Assembly: GCF_903970205.1 (NCBI RefSeq) | Contig: NZ_CAJCHS010000134.1 | Coordinates: forward strand, 1 to 35,897 | Origin: Nevskia soli | GTDB lineage: Bacteria > Acidobacteriota > Terriglobia > Bryobacterales > Bryobacteraceae | Length of the DNA: 35,897 nucleotides | Reading direction: 5' to 3' | Shown: piece by piece, positions 8,643-29,470 of the stretch | How the letters are laid out: each line of letters starts with the position of its first letter | Position numbering within the stretch: the stretch's first letter is position 1 | Notes under the pieces: model-generated | What the model was told of the DNA's origin: nothing | The model's database searches: none | Seen by the model: the letters and a program-made list of their open reading frames with translations, nothing else | Position numbers and translations under genes: made by a program

Positions 8643-9914
8643 ATGTCTACTGCATTTTCAATCGCTCTGTCCGCACTTTCCGCGAATACCACGGCAGTCA
8701 ACGTCATCGCCAATAACCTGGCGAACCTGGATACGACCGGATTCAAAGAGTCCGAAGTATCCTTTCAGGAACTCGTCAACCAGGCACTCGGAACGGAACA
8801 AACGGCGCCCGGTTTCGGAGTGTCGCCCGCAACCGTCACTCAGGTCTTTAGCCAAGGCGCGATCACCAGCTCGACCGGGCCTTACGACGCGGCTATCTCG
8901 GGGAACGGTTTCTTTGTTGTGAATAATCCCGCCACAGGCCAGCAGCTCTACACTCGCGACGGCAACTTTCAGGTAACTGCAACCGGCGAGTTAGTTACCT
9001 CTTCCGGTCAGACAGTTCAAGGTTGGGCGTCGACCGGCGGCACACTGAATACTTCCGGACCCATCGGAAACATCGTCCTGCCGACCGGCGCCATACAAAG
9101 CCCCGTGGCCACTCAGAACTTTGCGGTTCCGATCAGTTTGAACGCTTCCGATGCGGTAAGCACAACAAGTCCAAACTTCTCCGTTCCCATGCAGGTTTAT
9201 GATTCGCTCGGGCAGCAGCAAGACCTGACGATCAACTTCCAGAAGACCGGGCCGGGCGCGTGGACCTACACCGTCACTGCGCCGAACTCGAGCTTGGCGA
9301 GCCCCTCTTCGCCGTCCGGAACAACCACCGTGGCTACCGGATCGCTGGCCTTCGACACGAGCGGCAATTTGATGACTCCCGCAGCTTCAGCCGGTGCGAT
9401 CCCGATCACGGTCAGCGGATTGGCCGATGGCGCGGCAAACATGAGCTTCAACTGGAATCTATACGATCCGACAACGTCCGCGCCCAGCCTCACGCAGTAC
9501 GCTGGTCAACTGGATTCGGCGGGAAACGCGGTTCAGGACGGGTCCTCGGCCAGCGGGATCACCAGCATCACGATGGGCGCCGGCGGACAAATCAACGCGC
9601 AGTATTCTAACGGGCAGAACGTGGTTGTCGCTCAACTTGCGCTGGCGGCGATTCAGAACCCCAGTTCGCTCGCCACCGCCGGCAACAATAACTTCCAGGC
9701 CAGCGCGCAGACCAGTACGCCCAGCGTCGGCCTCCCCAACACCGCGGGCCGTGGAAATGTACAGGGCGGAGCGTTGGAGTCATCTACCGTCGATATCGCG
9801 ACCGAGTTCACGAACTTAATCGTGTTCCAGCGATCCTACGAGGCGAGCGCGAAAGTCGTCACTACGGCGGATACGCTCTCCGAAGACACCATTGAACTTA
9901 TCCCCGCCTCATGA
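8643..9914 (+). CDS. flgE: flagellar hook protein FlgE
   Basis: Subunit of the hook (universal joint), 423 residues. The N-terminus FSIALSALSANTTAVNVIAN, then NLANLDTTGFKESEVSFQEL, is the axial-protein signature. It is followed by PYDAAISGNGFFVVNNP and LYTRDGNFQV. Residues 190-310 contain the hook-specific domain (VPMQVYDSLGQQQDLTINFQ). The C-terminus holds GRGNVQGGALESSTVDIATE and FTNLIVFQRSYEASAKVV. An AAGGAG ribosome site lies 5 bases upstream of the ATG. The stop overlaps the next gene by 4 bases (ATGA). Confidence 0.97.
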   Translation: MSTAFSIALSALSANTTAVNVIANNLANLDTTGFKESEVSFQELVNQALGTEQTAPGFGVSPATVTQVFSQGAITSSTGPYDAAISGNGFFVVNNPATGQQLYTRDGNFQVTATGELVTSSGQTVQGWASTGGTLNTSGPIGNIVLPTGAIQSPVATQNFAVPISLNASDAVSTTSPNFSVPMQVYDSLGQQQDLTINFQKTGPGAWTYTVTAPNSSLASPSSPSGTTTVATGSLAFDTSGNLMTPAASAGAIPITVSGLADGAANMSFNWNLYDPTTSAPSLTQYAGQLDSAGNAVQDGSSASGITSITMGAGGQINAQYSNGQNVVVAQLALAAIQNPSSLATAGNNNFQASAQTSTPSVGLPNTAGRGNVQGGALESSTVDIATEFTNLIVFQRSYEASAKVVTTADTLSEDTIELIPAS

Positions 9915-10159
9915 CGCCTCTTGAAGAAATCGGGACGCTTACCGATGTTCGCGTGGACGTATCTGTGGAATTGGATCGGCGACTTATGTCGATCCGCCAG
10001 ATACTCGCGATGCGCATCGGTAGCGTTATTGAGATGCCGCGATCCGCGGGTGAGAATATCGACGTTTACGTCAGCGATACCCTCATTGGATTTGGGGAGA
10101 TTGTCATCATTGAAAACTCACTAGGATTCCGAATCACGGACTTCCGTACTGAGGAATAA
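9911..10159 (+). CDS. fliN: flagellar motor switch protein FliN, short form (SpoA domain only)
   Basis: C-ring protein of 82 residues that binds export cargo complexes and contributes to switching. It is essentially one SpoA/FliN domain: VRVDVSVELDRRLMSIRQIL, then GSVIEMPRSAGENIDVYVSD and IGFGEIVIIENSLGFRITD. The usual N-terminal extension of FliN (total 100-140 residues) is missing. It overlaps flgE by 4 bases and is followed by fliO. A second, much longer FliN-domain protein is encoded at 17174-18070, so this locus carries two members of the family plus FliM. Confidence 0.92.
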   Translation: MTPLEEIGTLTDVRVDVSVELDRRLMSIRQILAMRIGSVIEMPRSAGENIDVYVSDTLIGFGEIVIIENSLGFRITDFRTEE

Positions 10160-15454: not shown

Positions 15455-16417
15455 ATGGAAGTTAGATCGTACTATGCGTCTACGTTGGAAGCGGCGATGG
15501 CTTTGGCTCGTCGTGAACTCGGACCCGAAGCGCTGCTGATTCAGTCGCAGCGCACGGCGCCGGAATGGATACACCTCGGCAAATACGAGGCTGTGTTTGC
15601 GGGCGAAGTCCTTGCCCAACCCGCGAAACCGGCGGCTGCTCCTTCGTTTCCCATTCCCAAACCGGCAAACCCCAAAGCGACCCCGGTCGATCTGGTGGGC
15701 CGTTCCGACTTTCGCGATCGACTGCGAGCATCCAGCCCCTCGCGTCGCGCGCCAACTCCCGAACCCGTTCCATCGATCTCCTGCGATCCCGGATTAGGCC
15801 GCAAGGGATTCGCGACCACGGTCGCGCTGGTTGGTCCGGCCGGCGCCGGAAAAACCACCACCGCGATGAAAATTGCGCTGCGGCGCGGCCTTCTCGAATC
15901 GCGCACGGTCCGTCTGATTGCCTTCGATCCCTATCGCATCGGAGCGACGCGGCAGATGCAGCATTTCGCCGATCTGTTCAACCTCTCTTTTACCGACTGC
16001 GAGTTGATCGCCCAGCTCCAAACCGCGCTGGCCGGCGGCGAAGCTGCCCTGACCCTGATTGATACTCCCGGTTTCTCGTCGAATCAAGCTGACGAACGCG
16101 AGCAGCTCGCGGCCTGCTTGCGCCTCTTTCCTGAAGTCGAATCCCAACTGGTCCTTCGTCTGGACCGCAAACCCGCGGATAACCTCGTGGCTGTCGAGCA
16201 GTTCTCGTCATTCGCGGCCAGCCGCTTGATACTGACTGCCCTCGACGAAACCTTGGAACTCGCCGACGTTCCGGCGCTCGTCGCACGCGCCAATAAGCCC
16301 GTTTCGTTTTTAGGAACAGGTCAGCGCTTGCTCGAAGATATCGAATCGGCGAATCCGCAGCGTATGAATGAAGTGGTGCTGCATGGGTGGCCTAAGGCTG
16401 CCTCGGCGGCCGCATGA
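15455..16417 (+). CDS. flhF: flagellar biosynthesis GTPase FlhF
   Basis: SRP-family GTPase that sets the site and number of (usually polar) flagella. The 320-residue product starts with the FlhF-type region MEVRSYYASTLEAAMALARR followed by ELGPEALLIQSQR. A short Pro-rich linker precedes the NG domain. The P-loop is GPAGAGKTTT (residues 127-136), with FDPYRIGATRQMQHFADLF and DTPGF as further G motifs. The usual TKLDE guanine motif is altered to TALDE, losing the lysine. At 320 residues it is on the short side. It is coupled to the sigma factor gene by an ATGA overlap. Its regular partner gene flhG is not in this window. Confidence 0.9.
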   Translation: MEVRSYYASTLEAAMALARRELGPEALLIQSQRTAPEWIHLGKYEAVFAGEVLAQPAKPAAAPSFPIPKPANPKATPVDLVGRSDFRDRLRASSPSRRAPTPEPVPSISCDPGLGRKGFATTVALVGPAGAGKTTTAMKIALRRGLLESRTVRLIAFDPYRIGATRQMQHFADLFNLSFTDCELIAQLQTALAGGEAALTLIDTPGFSSNQADEREQLAACLRLFPEVESQLVLRLDRKPADNLVAVEQFSSFAASRLILTALDETLELADVPALVARANKPVSFLGTGQRLLEDIESANPQRMNEVVLHGWPKAASAAA

Positions 16418-17172
16418 CCACCATGTACGCCTGCCCGACCGAGACGGAGCCGAAGGAACGCCGCGACGCGCTCATCCTCGAACACCTCCCGCAAGTGCGG
16501 CTTATCGCCCGCCGGATTCATGAGCGCCTTCCCGACCGCGTGAGCATGGACGATCTGATTTCCAGCGGGGTCGTCGGTCTGATTGCCGCTATCGACAATT
16601 TCGATCCGTCGCTCAACGTCAAGTTGAAGACTTACGCCGAGTATCGAATTCGCGGCGCGATTATCGACACGCTTCGGGACCTGGATTGGGCGCCCCGCCA
16701 GCGGCGCAAGATGAGCCGCCAAATCGAGCAAGCCATCGCCGGCTTGGAACAGCGCCTCAGCCGGACGCCCACTGAAGAAGAGATCGCGGCCGAGCTCTCG
16801 ATCTCGCTCGATGAGTATCATCGCTGGCTCGTTGATACGGAAGGACTGCAGATCGCCGACCTGGAAGTCGCCGGTGAGTCGGATGACTCGGGCTTCAGCG
16901 TTCTGCGTTATGTAGCCAGTCCGGAAAGCGATTCGCCCGAACGCCTGCTGGAGCGGTCTGAGCTGGAGCGGCTGGTCGCATCGGCGATCGAGCGCATTCC
17001 GAGCCAGGAGCGCACCATTCTAAGCCTCTACTATCACGAAGAGCTCAACCTGCGGGAAATCGCGGAAATCCTGGGTTTGCACCTCTCGCGCATTTCGCAG
17101 CTGAAGACCCAGGCCATACTCCGCTTGCGCGCCACGCTCGAGCCCCGGTGGCCGGGAAGGAAAGAACTCTAG
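16414..17172 (+). CDS. fliA: RNA polymerase sigma-28 factor FliA (paralogue 1)
   Basis: Flagellar sigma factor of 252 residues that directs late flagellar gene transcription. Region 2 reads LPQVRLIARRIHERLPDRVS, MDDLISSGVVGLIAAIDNFD and KTYAEYRIRGAIIDTLRDLD, which is diagnostic of the FliA/SigD group. Region 3 (LSRTPTEEEIAAELSISLDE) and region 4 (ERIPSQERTILSLYYHEELN followed by LREIAEILGLHLSRISQLK) are complete. The start overlaps flhF (ATGA), and fliN2 begins 2 bases after the stop. A second sigma factor of the same group is encoded at 20075-20857. Confidence 0.95.
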   Translation: MTTMYACPTETEPKERRDALILEHLPQVRLIARRIHERLPDRVSMDDLISSGVVGLIAAIDNFDPSLNVKLKTYAEYRIRGAIIDTLRDLDWAPRQRRKMSRQIEQAIAGLEQRLSRTPTEEEIAAELSISLDEYHRWLVDTEGLQIADLEVAGESDDSGFSVLRYVASPESDSPERLLERSELERLVASAIERIPSQERTILSLYYHEELNLREIAEILGLHLSRISQLKTQAILRLRATLEPRWPGRKEL

Positions 17173-17173
17173 A

Positions 17174-18070
17174 ATGGAACTCACGGCTAAAGCTCTTCAA
17201 ATGCGCGAATGGCTCCTGGCGGAGTGGCTGGAGAAACTCTGCCTGATTCTCGAGTCGATGGCGGATGAACGTCCTTCCGTCCAGCGCCTGGACACGGACG
17301 AGGGCGGCGCCGGTCCGAATTCCGACTGCACCGTATGGATGCAGACGTTCTCCGGTTTGTCTGAGGCGCCTATCTGGATCGCGGTCCACCCTTCCTTCGC
17401 GATTGCGTGCGGGCGGCGAACTTTGCAGGCCGCGGGTGTCGAGTCCGCCGACGAGACCGAGGCGGTTAACACCTTCTCGGAGATCCTGAGCCAGTCTTTA
17501 TCCGCGCTCGGGCAAGCGATCAGCGCTCATCTGCTAGCCGAGGCCAATGCCGTCGATGGCGGCCCGGTCGACGCAGCTCCGCCGGATGTTCAGTGGATTG
17601 GCGCGCAGGCAAGTTTCAAGGACGAGCGCCTGGAACCATTCTGGATGGCCGCCGCGCCTGCGCTGCTCGAGAAACTTGGCGCGGGCGCTGCGTCCTCTCC
17701 GGCGGACGAAGCGAAAATCCCCGCTCCAATTGCGGCGGAACTGGTAGACGGCGCACCCCCGGAAACCGCCAACTCCAAGACTTTCGATTTGCTCCTGGAT
17801 GTTGCCCTACCGGTTTGCATCTCATTCGGACGCACGTTTTTGCCGATTAAAGACGTTCTCAAGCTGACCACCGGTTCAATCGTTGAACTCGACCGGACGG
17901 TTTCGGAGCCGGTCGATGTAATCGTGAACAATTGCGTAATCGCGCGCGGCGAAGTCGTCGTGGTGGAAGGCAACTATGGCGTTCGCATCAACCAGATCGC
18001 GACCCGTTTTGACCGGCTGAAAACCGGCAGCGCGACCACGGAAGCGCAGAACGCTCTGGTGCAGCGATGA
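17174..18070 (+). CDS. long FliN/FliY-like C-ring protein (paralogue 2)
   Basis: 298 residues. The C-terminal part (about residues 200-280) is a clear SpoA/FliN domain: TFDLLLDVALPVCISFGRTF, DVLKLTTGSIVELDRTVSEP and VIARGEVVVVEGNYGVRINQ. The N-terminal 180 residues are not obviously conserved. The pattern VNTFSEILSQSLSALGQAIS resembles the helix of CheC/CheX/FliY-type domains but lacks a clear E-x2-N active-site pair, so any phosphatase role is uncertain. It may be the main FliN, with the 82-residue protein at 9911 as a partner, or a FliY-like form. It lies directly after fliA and overlaps the next small gene by 4 bases. Confidence 0.82.
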   Translation: MELTAKALQMREWLLAEWLEKLCLILESMADERPSVQRLDTDEGGAGPNSDCTVWMQTFSGLSEAPIWIAVHPSFAIACGRRTLQAAGVESADETEAVNTFSEILSQSLSALGQAISAHLLAEANAVDGGPVDAAPPDVQWIGAQASFKDERLEPFWMAAAPALLEKLGAGAASSPADEAKIPAPIAAELVDGAPPETANSKTFDLLLDVALPVCISFGRTFLPIKDVLKLTTGSIVELDRTVSEPVDVIVNNCVIARGEVVVVEGNYGVRINQIATRFDRLKTGSATTEAQNALVQR

Positions 18071-20074: not shown

Positions 20075-20857
20075 ATGCGCATCGCCACACCGGTTACTGC
20101 CCTAGATCAAGGCAATGCGCCGGAAAAACAAACCCCCGATCAACCGAACTCCGATATCGATCTTCTCGCGTTCCTGCCGCTTGTAAAGTCGATTGCGATC
20201 GGCATTCATTCACGTATTCCTTCGTACGCCAGCGTCGATCTCAATGACTTAATTCAGGCCGGTCTGCTGGGTTTGGTTCACGCCGGAAAGTCATACCGTC
20301 AAAGCCGCAATGTGCCTTTCGCCGTTTTCGCCCGCTTTCGGATTCGTGGCGAGATCATTGATACGCTCCGTCAAAGCGACGTTGCGTCACGCGGCCTCCG
20401 GCGGCTCGACAAACAAATGAAGGCAACCGAGGCAACGTTGCAAGCGCAGTTGAACCGCGAACCTACCGATAGTGAAGTGGCCGAGCGCATGGCCGCCCTG
20501 AACCCGTCCCAGCGCCCTGCAGGCCGGACCGAATTCCTGCGCCTTCCCCCGGTCACGCTGACGTCCTTCGATCAGGAATCTGCGGAGATAGCGGCGCAGG
20601 AGGGCCACGAGCCCACCCCCGATTCGTTTCACTCCGCGGAAGAAGCGCGGCGGATCCTCGACCAGGCGATTGCTCAGCTGCCCGCGCGCTCGCGCGAGCT
20701 CATCCGGCTGTACTATCACGGCGAGTTGACCATGCGCGAGATCGGAGCTTTTTTCCAGGTGAATGAGAGCCGCGTCTCTCAAATTCATCGCCGGGCTCTT
20801 GAACGTCTGGGCCGGTCGCTTAAGGCCGTTGGAATCGAATCCGCGCGAGAAATCTAA
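20075..20857 (+). CDS. second sigma-28 (FliA-like) sigma factor (paralogue 2)
   Basis: 260 residues of the FliA/SigD group. Region 2 reads LPLVKSIAIGIHSRIPSYAS, DLNDLIQAGLLGLVHAGKSY and ARFRIRGEIIDTLRQSD. Region 3 has LNREPTDSEVAERMAAL. Region 4 reads QLPARSRELIRLYYHGELTM followed by REIGAFFQVNESRVSQIHRR. It is clearly diverged from paralogue 1, especially at the region 2.4 equivalent (RQSDVASRGLRRLDKQ against RDLDWAPRQRRKMSRQ), so promoter preference may differ. No ribosome site is evident before the ATG. Its position just before flgM makes it a likely FlgM target. Confidence 0.9.
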   Translation: MRIATPVTALDQGNAPEKQTPDQPNSDIDLLAFLPLVKSIAIGIHSRIPSYASVDLNDLIQAGLLGLVHAGKSYRQSRNVPFAVFARFRIRGEIIDTLRQSDVASRGLRRLDKQMKATEATLQAQLNREPTDSEVAERMAALNPSQRPAGRTEFLRLPPVTLTSFDQESAEIAAQEGHEPTPDSFHSAEEARRILDQAIAQLPARSRELIRLYYHGELTMREIGAFFQVNESRVSQIHRRALERLGRSLKAVGIESAREI

Positions 20858-20865
20858 GCGCAGGC

Positions 20866-20892
20866 TAAAGAATACGGAAAACAGGCCGATAC
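20866..20892 (+). promoter_or_regulatory. sigma-28 promoter of the flgM-flgN-flgK-flgL unit
   Basis: TAAA at 20866-20869, exactly 15 bases, then GCCGATAC at 20885-20892. It matches the sigma-28 consensus TAAA-N15-GCCGATAA in all but the last position. The start point near 20899 gives flgM a leader of about 30 bases that contains GGAGG. flgM and hook-junction genes are classic sigma-28 targets, so sequence and context agree. Confidence 0.82.
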
Positions 20893-24946: not shown

Positions 24947-25120
24947 CTATTGAATAGATTTCCTGCTCCATTTACCGCGTCTGGTCACATGCGCAAGCAA
25001 TTCGAGGCAAACTTCAAATTCAAGATCGCTATGTGCGCCCCCGCTATCCATCCCGAGCTGTTCGTGAACACCCGCCAGAAGATCCTGCTGTTCTTCGATG
25101 AGCGTAGCGTATCGGTCCAT
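24947..25120 (-). CDS. unannotated 57-residue small protein between fliM and flbD
   Basis: Not recognised. The minus-strand frame starts with ATG at 25120 and ends with TAG at 24947. It begins MDRYATLIEEQQDLLAGVHE, contains an acidic middle (SDLEFEVCLELLAH) and ends basic (VTRRGKWSRKSIQ). An AAGGAG ribosome site lies 9 bases before the ATG, and an exact sigma-28 -10 element (GCCGATAA) lies just upstream of it. The stop is 6 bases from the fliM stop, as expected for packed convergent genes. No membrane segment or signal peptide is visible. The composition suggests two amphipathic helices, perhaps a small regulator or chaperone, but the function is unknown. The competing plus-strand frame here has no ribosome site. 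Confidence 0.6.
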   Translation of the reverse strand: MDRYATLIEEQQDLLAGVHEQLGMDSGGAHSDLEFEVCLELLAHVTRRGKWSRKSIQ

Positions 25121-25139
25121 GTATTGAATCTCCTTTTTC

Positions 25140-25166
25140 TTATCGGCGCGCCTAAGCGAGATTCGA
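25140..25166 (-). promoter_or_regulatory. sigma-28-type promoter candidate for the 57-residue ORF
   Basis: The minus strand carries GCCGATAA (25147-25140), an 8 of 8 match to the sigma-28 -10 consensus. The -35 position, 15 bases upstream (25166-25163), reads TCGA and matches TAAA poorly. The predicted start is about 12 bases before the ATG, with the ribosome site at the 5' end, similar to the flbD promoter that faces away from it. Confidence 0.5.
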
Positions 25167-25194
25167 ATCCCGACCCTAAATTTTCTGCGCGGCC

Positions 25195-25222
25195 TAAAGT
25201 TACTCGTCCATTCCGGCGATTT
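25195..25222 (+). promoter_or_regulatory. sigma-28-type promoter of flbD-motA-motB
   Basis: TAAAGTTA (25195-25202; 7 of 8 to TAAAGTTT) is followed after 12 bases by GGCGATTT (25215-25222; 5 of 8 to GCCGATAA). The spacer is one base longer than the enteric optimum. Stator genes are standard sigma-28 targets. The start point near 25229 leaves a leader of about 11 bases containing AAGGGA. Confidence 0.62.
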
Positions 25223-25239
25223 CAGAGCAAGGGATCGCG

Positions 25240-25434
25240 ATGATCGCGGTGACCCGGCTTAATTGTTCGGCGATCCTGCTGAACAGCGACCTGATCGAAA
25301 CGGTAGAAACGACTCCAGACACAGTGATTTGCTTAACAAACGGGCAGAAAATCGTGGTCCTGGAACACGTGGACGAGATCCTTGAACGCATTCGTCGGTT
25401 CCGCCAATCCATCCACGAGCACCGGAGTATCTGA
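25240..25434 (+). CDS. flbD: flagellar FlbD/SwrD-like small protein
   Basis: 64 residues, full length for the family. It matches the FlbD (SwrD) pattern: MIAVTRLNCSAILLNSDLIE, then TVETTPDTVICLTNGQKIVV, with the typical invariant LN-DLIE, TPDTVI and G-K-VV elements (the usual RLNG is RLNC here). In Bacillus the family protein supports swarming by raising stator power. Location directly before motA is the usual one. An AAGGGA ribosome site precedes the ATG by 5 bases, and the stop overlaps the motA start by one base (TGATG). Confidence 0.9.
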   Translation: MIAVTRLNCSAILLNSDLIETVETTPDTVICLTNGQKIVVLEHVDEILERIRRFRQSIHEHRSI

Positions 25435-26307: not shown

Positions 26308-27030
26308 ATGACTCGCCGAAAAACCTCAAGCGGGCCGAACCACGAACGCTGGCTCGTCTCGTACGCCGACTTCATAACGCTCCTGTTCGCTTTCTTTGTC
26401 GTCCTCTTCGCTTCGTCTCAAGATCGCAAAAAAGTCCGGCAGGTGTCCGAGTCGGTTCAAGCCGCCTTCCAGGGAAAGGCCGCGCCGCACGCCAACTCGC
26501 AGTCCACTCCGGCGGGTTCGCCCCAGCCGGTAAGCTCACCCAAGCCGGTAAGCCTGGACCCCCCGCTGCAAAAGCTGTTACGCGATCTCGATAGCGAAAT
26601 CCGCAGCGGCAAAATGCAGGTTCGCATGGGTGACCGAGGCCTTACCATTTCACTCAGCCAGTCAGCATTCTTTCCGTCGGGAACGGACACACTCGACCCT
26701 TCCGCCTACCCGATTCTCCGTAAGGTAGCCGCCGCGATTCGCGGACTCCCGAACGCGATCCGCTTCGAGGGACATACCGATTCGATTCCCATCCGTACCC
26801 CGCGCTTTCGAAGTAACTGGGACTTATCCGCCGCCCGCGCAATCGCCGTAATGGAGCGTATGGACGAGGAAGAAGAGATTCCGCGGGAGCGCATCGCCGT
26901 TTCCGGTTACGCGGACACCGCTCCGGTCGAGTCCAACGACAGCGAGGATGGGCGTGCCCGGAACCGCCGCGTGGATATTGTGCTTCTGAATGCGGCAGCC
27001 GCGGCCCGCGAACCGGCCGGTAATCGCTAA
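26308..27030 (+). CDS. motB: flagellar motor stator protein MotB (MotD-like)
   Basis: Stator subunit anchored to peptidoglycan, 240 residues. The single transmembrane helix WLVSYADFITLLFAFFVVLF contains the proton-binding Asp21. The WLVSYADFITLLFAFF wording is closer to the MotD group than to enteric MotB. A Pro/Ser linker follows. The OmpA-like domain lies at residues 110-232 (QSAFFPSGTDTLDPSAYPIL, RFEGHTDSIPI, ISGYADTAPV-like AVSGYADTAPV and RARNRRVDIV). It is the last gene of the flbD-mot unit. 84 bases separate it from the next gene. Confidence 0.95.
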   Translation: MTRRKTSSGPNHERWLVSYADFITLLFAFFVVLFASSQDRKKVRQVSESVQAAFQGKAAPHANSQSTPAGSPQPVSSPKPVSLDPPLQKLLRDLDSEIRSGKMQVRMGDRGLTISLSQSAFFPSGTDTLDPSAYPILRKVAAAIRGLPNAIRFEGHTDSIPIRTPRFRSNWDLSAARAIAVMERMDEEEEIPRERIAVSGYADTAPVESNDSEDGRARNRRVDIVLLNAAAAAREPAGNR

Positions 27031-27114
27031 CCGCGTTGGCTTCTTTGGTTTCGATTCGCTACCTCTCCCCCTAAAGTCCGCTGAACAAAGCGAAAGTCGT
27101 TCATACGGCTATTT

Positions 27115-28974
27115 ATGAAGGGCTTGCCGAACCCCGTACTTTCAGCTTCTGTAAAGAACCGGTGGAAACCAGCCGATGCGTATGGAGGAGAGGTTGTTCG
27201 ATTGGAACTGGACGCGGTTAACGAGCGCGGGAACGCTGAGGCCGGCCTGGCCTCCGTTTTGGGAACATTGGTTTCCACGTTCAGCCGGGCGCCCGTCATG
27301 CACGGCAAGAGGATGCGCGATTTGCTGAACCTCAGCCCGGAGGGCTTTCTGGTCGCAACCGTGTCGGCACTGCATCACTCGGCCGACCCGCAAGGTTATC
27401 GTTACCTTGTAAAGCTACTCGCAACTCGCGGTCTCCTAATTCCGCTCCTGGGTGATACGACGCTTCCGCTCAGTTTCGCTCTGAACCTCGCACGCACGGT
27501 AAAAATAGAACCTCAGCTTCACTTCCGTCTCACCCGAACGTTAGCCGACAGCGTGCTTGAATCGCGCGATCTGCCTGAAGACACGGCATGCCGCCTTCTT
27601 GAAATTCTCTGCGCGATCACTGAGTTCGCCGGACTCCAACTCTTCCTCCGGCAGATACTCTCCCATCCGAGCGCTCGTATCCGCTCGAAAGCCGGACTTC
27701 TCATTAGCCGCGGTCCCGCTGGCGCACGCGCCGTGGAGAAACTGCTCCTCGACGAGAATGAACGCGTCCGGGCAAACGCGACCGAGGCGCTATGGGACTG
27801 TGAACCGGAGCATTCACTGCCGTTGTTCTTGCGCGTTTTAAACGATCCACACCATCGCGTGGTGGGAAACGCGATTGTTGGGCTCTACCGCTGCGGAGAT
27901 CTTCGCGCCTTTAATGCGATTCTTCAGCTCATCAGTCATCCGGATCCAATGTTTCGTGCAGCCGGTGTCTGGGCCATGGGCCGCACCAAAGACCCTCGAT
28001 ACTTGACTCAACTCGCCCGCATGCTTGCCGAGTCATCCGGTCCGGGAAGAAGAGGCCTGTTTAATGCCGTGAACTCCATCAAGAAGGCCGCGGTCACCCG
28101 CGCTTCCAACCCGCCGCTCAAGGTGACTGTGCTCCGGACAGATGCGAACGACGAGCGGAAAATCACGATTTATCTGGTAATCGAGGGCCCGAATATTTCT
28201 GAACCGCCGCGCGTTCAACCAACCGGGATGGCGCTCTTCGCCGACGGCTCTCCGGTCACCATCGTCGAGTGCATTGAGAAGAGCTCAAACTCGGCCACCC
28301 TCGGTATCGTGCTGCCTGGTCGTATGGACGGCAATGAACGATTCGATCAGTGTGTGGAGGAAGCCGTCTCCGCCTGTCTGAAGAATAAATCTAAAAGAGA
28401 GCCTTGGAGTATCGCCTACTACGCGCCTGCGCCCACGGGCGCGACCCGGCTTCCCGGGGCCGAACCCGCTTCTACACCGGCGCCGAAGAGCCTCGCAGCC
28501 GGATCTCCGTACACCATTAGCAGTGATTCGTTGCGCCGGACCCTGAACAGCCGGACCTCGGAAAACAGTCCACTGCCCGTTTGGTTTGACGCGGCGTCAG
28601 CTGCAATAAGCGGCGTAATCCCCGCCCGCGACTCCCGGCACCTGATCACCTTCGTTCGATTGAGTGCCGAAATCGATTCAGAATCCATCGAGCGTCTGCA
28701 GATGCTCGCCCTGGATAAGCACGTTGCTGTCCACGCACTCTGTCTCGAGACCGACCGGCGAATCTCGCACCTATGCCACACCACCGGAGGCCAGTGCCGC
28801 GTCATCCAATCCGTTGAAGATATTGAGCCCCAGTTGCTGCTCGTTTACGCGTCCATCAAGAGTTGTTTCGCAGTCACCTTCTTGAAATCCGGCGTCGCCG
28901 ACCCGATGCCGAAAACCATCGGGATTCAGGTCTTCAACGATACCCAATTCGGTCAGACCGAGTGGCACCCTTAA
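27115..28974 (+). CDS. HEAT-repeat and vWA-like protein of unknown function inside the flagellar locus
   Basis: 619 residues, not a known flagellar gene. The N-terminal half is helical, with at least four HEAT-type repeats at a 31-residue period starting near residues 183, 214, 244 and 275 (HPSARIRSKAGLLI, DENERVRANATEALWD, DPHHRVVGNAIVGLYR, HPDPMFRAAGVWAMGR). From about residue 335 a vWA-like fold is suggested by ATLGIVLPGRMDG, RHLITFVRLSAEID and a late TGGQC. The metal-binding DxSxS motif is absent. No signal peptide or membrane helix is seen, so a cytoplasmic scaffold role is plausible but inferred. It is flanked by motB and flgB in the same direction. No ribosome site is visible. A weak sigma-28-like site lies at 27072 (TAAAGTCC, then GCGAAAGT). 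Confidence 0.85.
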   Translation: MKGLPNPVLSASVKNRWKPADAYGGEVVRLELDAVNERGNAEAGLASVLGTLVSTFSRAPVMHGKRMRDLLNLSPEGFLVATVSALHHSADPQGYRYLVKLLATRGLLIPLLGDTTLPLSFALNLARTVKIEPQLHFRLTRTLADSVLESRDLPEDTACRLLEILCAITEFAGLQLFLRQILSHPSARIRSKAGLLISRGPAGARAVEKLLLDENERVRANATEALWDCEPEHSLPLFLRVLNDPHHRVVGNAIVGLYRCGDLRAFNAILQLISHPDPMFRAAGVWAMGRTKDPRYLTQLARMLAESSGPGRRGLFNAVNSIKKAAVTRASNPPLKVTVLRTDANDERKITIYLVIEGPNISEPPRVQPTGMALFADGSPVTIVECIEKSSNSATLGIVLPGRMDGNERFDQCVEEAVSACLKNKSKREPWSIAYYAPAPTGATRLPGAEPASTPAPKSLAAGSPYTISSDSLRRTLNSRTSENSPLPVWFDAASAAISGVIPARDSRHLITFVRLSAEIDSESIERLQMLALDKHVAVHALCLETDRRISHLCHTTGGQCRVIQSVEDIEPQLLLVYASIKSCFAVTFLKSGVADPMPKTIGIQVFNDTQFGQTEWHP

Positions 28975-28985
28975 TCCGGCGCCAA

Positions 28986-29017
28986 ACGGGATGCACAGAC
29001 GCTTCTCGACATCCCGT
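28986..29017 (+). terminator. 8-bp stem-loop after the HEAT/vWA gene
   Basis: ACGGGATG (28986-28993) and CATCCCGT (29010-29017) are perfectly complementary around a 16-base loop, starting 12 bases after the stop codon. No T-run follows, so it may be a transcript-end stabiliser or part of an imperfect terminator. It separates this gene from the flgB unit. Confidence 0.35.
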
Positions 29018-29105
29018 CCGAAGAGCTCAAGCGGCAATGTTTTGCCGCGGTTACCATTTCTTGCCTTTCGTAAGTCCGCAACTCGTTGCAAACAAACCCA
29101 CAGAC

Positions 29106-29123
29106 TTGGCTGCCGGCGTGCCT
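29106..29123 (+). promoter_or_regulatory. sigma-54-type -24/-12 promoter candidate for the flgB operon
   Basis: TTGGC (29106-29110) and TGCC (29119-29122) place GG and GC exactly 10 bases apart, with a T before each, the same TGG-N9-TGC form as at flgF and fliK. The predicted start near 29133 is only 2 bases before the proposed GTG of flgB. The message would therefore be nearly leaderless or use the ATG at 29171. Confidence 0.45.
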
Positions 29124-29134
29124 TGAGAGTACTC

Positions 29135-29470
29135 GTGCTGGACGGACTCTCCAATCAGATTGAACACTATATGGATCTGCTGAGCGCTCGCCAGCGATTG
29201 GTCGCGTCCAACATTGCCAACGCCGCCACCCCGGGATATAAGACACAGGATATCGATTTTCGTCAGGAATTCGAGAATGAGCTTCCCAACTCCACACCCG
29301 TTTCCGAAGACGTGATCGGACTGAAAACCAAGAACGACGGCAACAACGTCAGCATTGACCGCGAGTCCCGGATGCTCTCCGAAACGGCCTTGCGATTCAG
29401 CCTCGCCTCGCAAATGCTGCGCAGCGAAATCCGCACGCTCAAGAGCGCCATCAACGAAGGGAAATCCTGA
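29135..29470 (+). CDS. flgB: flagellar proximal rod protein FlgB
   Basis: Rod subunit of 111 residues, first gene of the basal-body operon. The signature LLSARQRLVASNIANAATPG followed by YKTQDIDFRQEFE matches FlgB. The C-terminus LRFSLASQMLRSEIRTLKSA is also typical. The open frame extends back to 28991, but that extension is Arg/Cys-rich and unlike the family. The GTG at 29135 (MLDGLSNQIEHYMDLL) gives the right spacing before NIANA and has a weak GAGA upstream. TTG at 29123 and ATG at 29171 are alternatives. It is coupled to flgC by TGATG. Confidence 0.9.
   Translation: MLDGLSNQIEHYMDLLSARQRLVASNIANAATPGYKTQDIDFRQEFENELPNSTPVSEDVIGLKTKNDGNNVSIDRESRMLSETALRFSLASQMLRSEIRTLKSAINEGKS

Follow-up and report, generated by a model that had tools for sequence, protein, structure and literature searches.

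What does a protein made of HEAT repeats and a vWA-like domain do in the middle of a flagellar locus? The window, which is the whole stretch of DNA analysed (35,897 nucleotides), is one entire contig of a 455-contig, 71%-complete MAG. On its forward strand, a frame at 27115-28974 stays open for 619 codons, with motB on one side and flgB on the other. The first-pass annotation had read its product as HEAT-type repeats followed by a vWA-like domain that lacks the DxSxS metal site, and both parts of that reading are borne out below. The features that we refer to are as follows.

26308..27030, + strand: motB, the upstream neighbour, also directly upstream in the related genome G001
27115..28974, + strand: HEAT-vWA protein ORF, 619 aa from ATG 27115 as listed
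27184..27193, + strand: putative Shine-Dalgarno-like sequence GGAGGAGAGG, 8 nt ahead of TTG 27202
27232..28104, + strand: alpha-solenoid of HEAT-type helix pairs, residues ~40-330 (HEAT_2 match, AlphaFold, PDB alphaRep/HEAT chains)
28120..28965, + strand: degenerate acidobacterial-VWFA-like region (beta subdomain and vWA fold), residues ~336-617 (hhalign, fold)
28315..28329, + strand: MIDAS DxSxS position, here PGRMD, residues 401-405 (alignment to canonical DVSRS)
29135..29470, + strand: flgB, the downstream neighbour (TIGR01396, 2.7e-20), ORF listed from 28991

The protein is probably shorter than listed. ATG 27115 has no Shine-Dalgarno sequence before it, whereas TTG 27202 is preceded by GGAGGAGAGG. 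Homologues align only from about residue 36-47 onward, and the first ~39 residues of the listed ORF are predicted to be disordered (pLDDT below 50 for residues 8-39 in the AlphaFold model). Thus, TTG 27202 is probably the start, which would give a protein of about 590 aa. The start of flgB, placed with the help of the FlgB protein of genome G027, is probably GTG 29135, leaving a gap of about 160 bp after the HEAT-vWA gene. The GC content of the gene (0.584; GC3 0.655) is similar to that of its neighbours, with GC3 a little lower. No recognisable signal peptide was seen on inspection by eye, which supports a cytoplasmic-looking adaptor architecture, in line with the cytoplasmic location proposed earlier. 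A search upstream of the gene found no sigma-28 promoter, the best site in the window preceding flgM; no sigma-70-like site lies within 26900-29300, and matches to the sigma-54 pattern do not exceed chance level. Our literature search returned no paper describing this protein.

The N-terminal half is an alpha-solenoid. It matches the Pfam model HEAT_2 (PF13646) at 72.9 bits (E 2.7e-20), above the gathering score of 27.7 bits. An AlphaFold model computed with 17 homologues in the input (pLDDT 83.8, pTM 0.76) shows helices at residues 26-330, then a beta subdomain and then an alternating alpha/beta domain, so that the check suggested earlier for the two halves returned a solenoid followed by a confident vWA fold. 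Helix pairs with a period of about 31 residues run across residues 187-306, with more helices N-terminal to them. In Foldseek searches, alphaRep chains match the solenoid half; no full-length match was seen in the list, which consists mainly of repeats and vWA domains. NCBIfam matches to fumarate reductase, adenylosuccinate lyase and NblB were driven by the repeats and were discarded.

We then investigated the C-terminal half. Single-sequence searches gave no match to a vWA model. In the predicted model, residues 387-586 superpose on the vWA domain of 4fx5 (Z 18.9, rmsd 2.7, 168 residues), as well as on those of TFIIH p44, Rpn10 and BatB. The MIDAS position reads P401-G-R403-M-D405 in the target and DVSRS in a canonical copy from the same genome, and the DxSxS motif is found at this position in none of 17 family members. 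A profile-profile comparison of this half with 28 acidobact_VWFA (TIGR03436) stretches gathered from the window's own genome gave a probability of 98.6% (hhalign, E 1.4e-15, 230 columns), while the HEAT half, used as a control, gave 0.3%. The TIGR03436 model itself has no match to the target at E<10, so that its curated score of 81.25 bits is not reached, and it matches 2 of the 17 family members (best 4.5e-4). Judged from these profiles, the C-terminal half is remotely related to TIGR03436 and to no flagellar protein. The window genome contains 25 matches to TIGR03436 (e.g. L191-L215), some of them in tandem (contigs C78 and C388).

The locus around the gene had been called a complete flagellar locus. 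Its neighbours motB and flgB stand, but the set is not complete: flagellin and fliD of this genome lie on another contig (C23), and one FliW query gave no match, a result that in a 71%-complete MAG does not establish absence. Because flgB follows the HEAT-vWA gene, flagellin and fliD are on C23 and FliW was not found, an arrangement linked to fliW has probably been rearranged here. The locus holds two FliA/WhiG-type sigma factor genes (16414-17172 and 20075-20857). A near-perfect sigma-28 site (20866-20892; TAAA-N15-GCCGATAC, one mismatch) lies just before flgM, and the window has 31 sigma-28-like matches, against a maximum of 29 among 100 shuffles. Besides FliM, there are two FliN-type (FliMN_C) proteins (9911-10159 and 17174-18070), the second of which, of 298 aa and with an extended N-terminal region, lies beside the first sigma factor. 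Between fliM and motA is an ORF of 97 aa with no Pfam match (24950-25243).

Is the link to flagellar genes peculiar to this contig? Among the matches listed, we found nine flagella-linked loci, two in the window's genus (g1) and seven in different species of a second genus (g41); these are non-independent samples, and further flagella-linked members may exist beyond those listed. The neighbours of motB and the 80 loci named in the family search had at first suggested that the linkage is confined to g1. This was overturned by a comparison of FliF positions with family matches, which brought the g41 loci to light. The linkage to flagellar operons is therefore real, being kept in both g1 genomes and recurring in g41. 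In g1, the gene directly follows motB in both genomes. The order in G001 (bog_233) is fliM-motA-motB-HEATvWA-fliW-flagellin, with the stop codon TAA overlapping the ATG of fliW in the junction TAATG. In the seven g41 species, it is flgK-flgL-fliM-HEATvWA-fliW-flagellin-fliD-flgB-flgC-fliE-fliF-fliG, as far as the contigs extend. Here the gene overlaps or closely trails fliM, and most junctions are overlaps of start and stop codons (ATGA, GTGA or TTGA). Profile comparison places the g41 proteins in the family along their entire length (E 1.9e-64), with values of 1.7e-53 for the HEAT half and 4e-18 for the C-terminal half, and the adjoining FliW was identified by Pfam. Most g41 genomes (G104-G121) have FliF and a full flagellar operon, yet give no MotB match at E <= 1e-30; thus, they may have unusual or diverged stator genes.

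The original proposal had raised the question whether homologues always lie beside motB or flgB, and no such fixed place emerged from this survey: upstream of the gene, g41 has fliM, and downstream of it, 8 of 9 loci have fliW, with the window as the exception. Adjacency to motB and flgB is thus the feature that generalises least. In eight other g41 species, fliM and fliW are adjacent with no insert, so the gene is dispensable. On a FliM-FlgL-FlgK tree including the g1 rows, its presence and absence require at least five state changes. Gene content upstream of fliW and of flgB differs among genera; motB is directly followed by fliW in three more relatives and by unrelated genes (e.g. rnc or an alcohol dehydrogenase gene) in eight others. 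The two g1 copies share about 35% identity with the reading frame kept. In the family tree, the window gene and the motB-linked copy of G001 are sisters (98/80), a second, non-flagellar copy of G001 branches beside this pair (100/100), and the g41 copies fall into one clade with a long stem. That all flagella-linked copies make up a single clade is neither rejected nor established (p-AU 0.27).

The family extends well beyond flagellar operons. An exact-pattern scan of genome contigs with the single protein found no relative, but a search with the alignment did. Of the 237 genomes in the window's family, 167 have homologues at E <= 1e-20, many of the genomes compared being fragmented MAGs. The named records are Bryobacterales, Bryobacteraceae or Solibacter-like MAGs. 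There are two size classes, full-length HEAT-vWA (~570-620 aa) and HEAT-only (~300-370 aa). The family is multi-copy, with most loci away from flagellar genes. Among the 80 named loci, flagellar genes accompany only the motB-linked copy of G001, and further sets of 40 and 59 loci (partly overlapping) added no full-length member in a flagellar locus; in G138, one HEAT-only gene is separated by 1.7 kb from flgL/flgK, which are on the other strand. Other contexts include CpsB and an M17 aminopeptidase gene, which adjoins family genes in nine loci and, in one clade, faces them. At L149, L160, L163, L171 and others, a HEAT-vWA or HEAT gene precedes a large M1-peptidase-like gene by about 13 bp. A peptidase-adaptor link is possible for these M1 and M17 neighbours. 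Tandem pairs of HEAT or HEAT-vWA genes occur at L115, L117, L136, L139 and L140.

Co-occurrence with flagella carries little weight, because FliF is found in 217 of the 237 genomes. Three genomes without a FliF match, each at least 96% complete (G107, G171 and G259), carry homologues, though their missing FliF may be due to fragmentation. Many flagellated relatives, including the two-contig genome G009 with FliF and MotB, contain no homologue.

This last observation bears on the role suggested for the protein by the first-pass annotation, that of a scaffold for C-ring, stator or export assembly or of a sensor of motor state; under this reading, the gene upstream, fliM (g41) or motB (g1), would point to the partner. 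The positions behind fliM and motB would fit such a role, but the upstream neighbour is not the same between the genera, relatives with complete motors lack the gene, and fliM and fliW are both present in the eight insert-free g41 species. Since flagellated relatives do without it, the protein is not a general component of these assemblies, and we regard the scaffold or sensor role as improbable. Nor does it belong to the structure of the motor, since sister species have the same operon minus this gene; to judge from this, it seems to be an optional addition to the flagellum and not one of its core components. A part in a defence or conflict system, already disfavoured, is very unlikely. HEAT/ARM repeats do occur in such proteins, and PADLOC gave weak matches (HEAT-ARM_XIII, 3e-9; OloA, 3.5e-5), but these cover only the repeats and are explained by them, and no defence partner genes lie in the window or the other flagella-linked loci.

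A serious rival is that the gene is a passenger, a copy of a general (e.g. proteostasis-related) Bryobacterales adaptor that has settled in a tolerant flagellar junction without any role in the flagellum. We give this reading about a third of the probability, because the family has many copies, mostly away from flagellar genes (e.g. beside M17 or M1-like peptidase genes), and because what lies upstream of fliW and flgB differs from genus to genus; the patchy presence on the FliM-FlgL-FlgK tree also agrees with it. Against it speak the shared position next to fliW in two genera, where codons overlap, and the retention of the gene over deep divergence within each genus.

We favour, at a probability of roughly 0.5, a lineage-specific accessory cytoplasmic adaptor in the flagellar operon that is made together with the FliW module. 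The fliW-adjacent synteny in two genera, the reading frame kept between the diverged g1 copies, the two folds and the loss of the MIDAS in all members argue for it; the insert-free g41 junctions, the minimum of five changes, the mostly non-flagellar family and the window without fliW argue against it. The HEAT solenoid and the metal-less vWA domain would provide two protein-binding surfaces. FliW is a flagellin/CsrA regulator, and since in two genera a member of the family adjoins and usually overlaps the start of fliW, the protein is probably co-translated with FliW and with the CsrA-flagellin module. The adaptor would most likely bridge two proteins and so tune a cytoplasmic step near flagellin supply or FliW/FliM assembly, any specific partner being a guess. 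We are doubtful of the stronger proposal that this fusion of a HEAT solenoid with a metal-less copy of the VWFA domain, itself expanded in the phylum, is a new Bryobacterales factor accessory to the FliW-CsrA-flagellin circuit (or to FliM/C-ring supply), encoded by a cassette repeatedly gained and lost between fliM or motB and fliW.

A flagellar operon is commonly regarded as an unvarying list of parts. In the present case, some soil Acidobacteriota would carry an optional adaptor that in most carriers appears translationally coupled to a flagellin regulator, while many flagellated relatives do not have the gene. The presence/absence pairs at one junction make its function testable by comparing sister species. 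The acidobacterial VWFA expansion also seems to feed metal-less, apparently cytoplasmic adaptors.

Several known systems resemble this protein in part. It shares with HEAT_2/alphaRep-type solenoids (PF13646) the repeat motif, the period of ~31 residues and the likeness to PDB alphaRep chains, but it adds the C-terminal vWA-like domain and its N-terminal helices have diverged. With the FliW-CsrA-flagellin module it shares the adjacency to fliW in eight flagella-linked loci; it is a neighbour rather than a member of that module, and fliW was not found for the window. About 250 C-terminal residues align end to end with acidobact_VWFA (TIGR03436), the beta subdomain and the TGG...Y motif included. 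In contrast to that family, the target lacks DxSxS, falls below the curated cut-off and is fused behind a HEAT solenoid, and it does not have the signal-peptide-like stretch with which the canonical copy L192 starts. TFIIH p44/Ssl1, p34 and Rpn10 are metal-less vWA subunits of intracellular complexes. They have the same fold over residues 387-586 (Z 16-19), but no sequence relation beyond the fold, and their partners are different; by analogy, the target may resemble them in acting as an adaptor.
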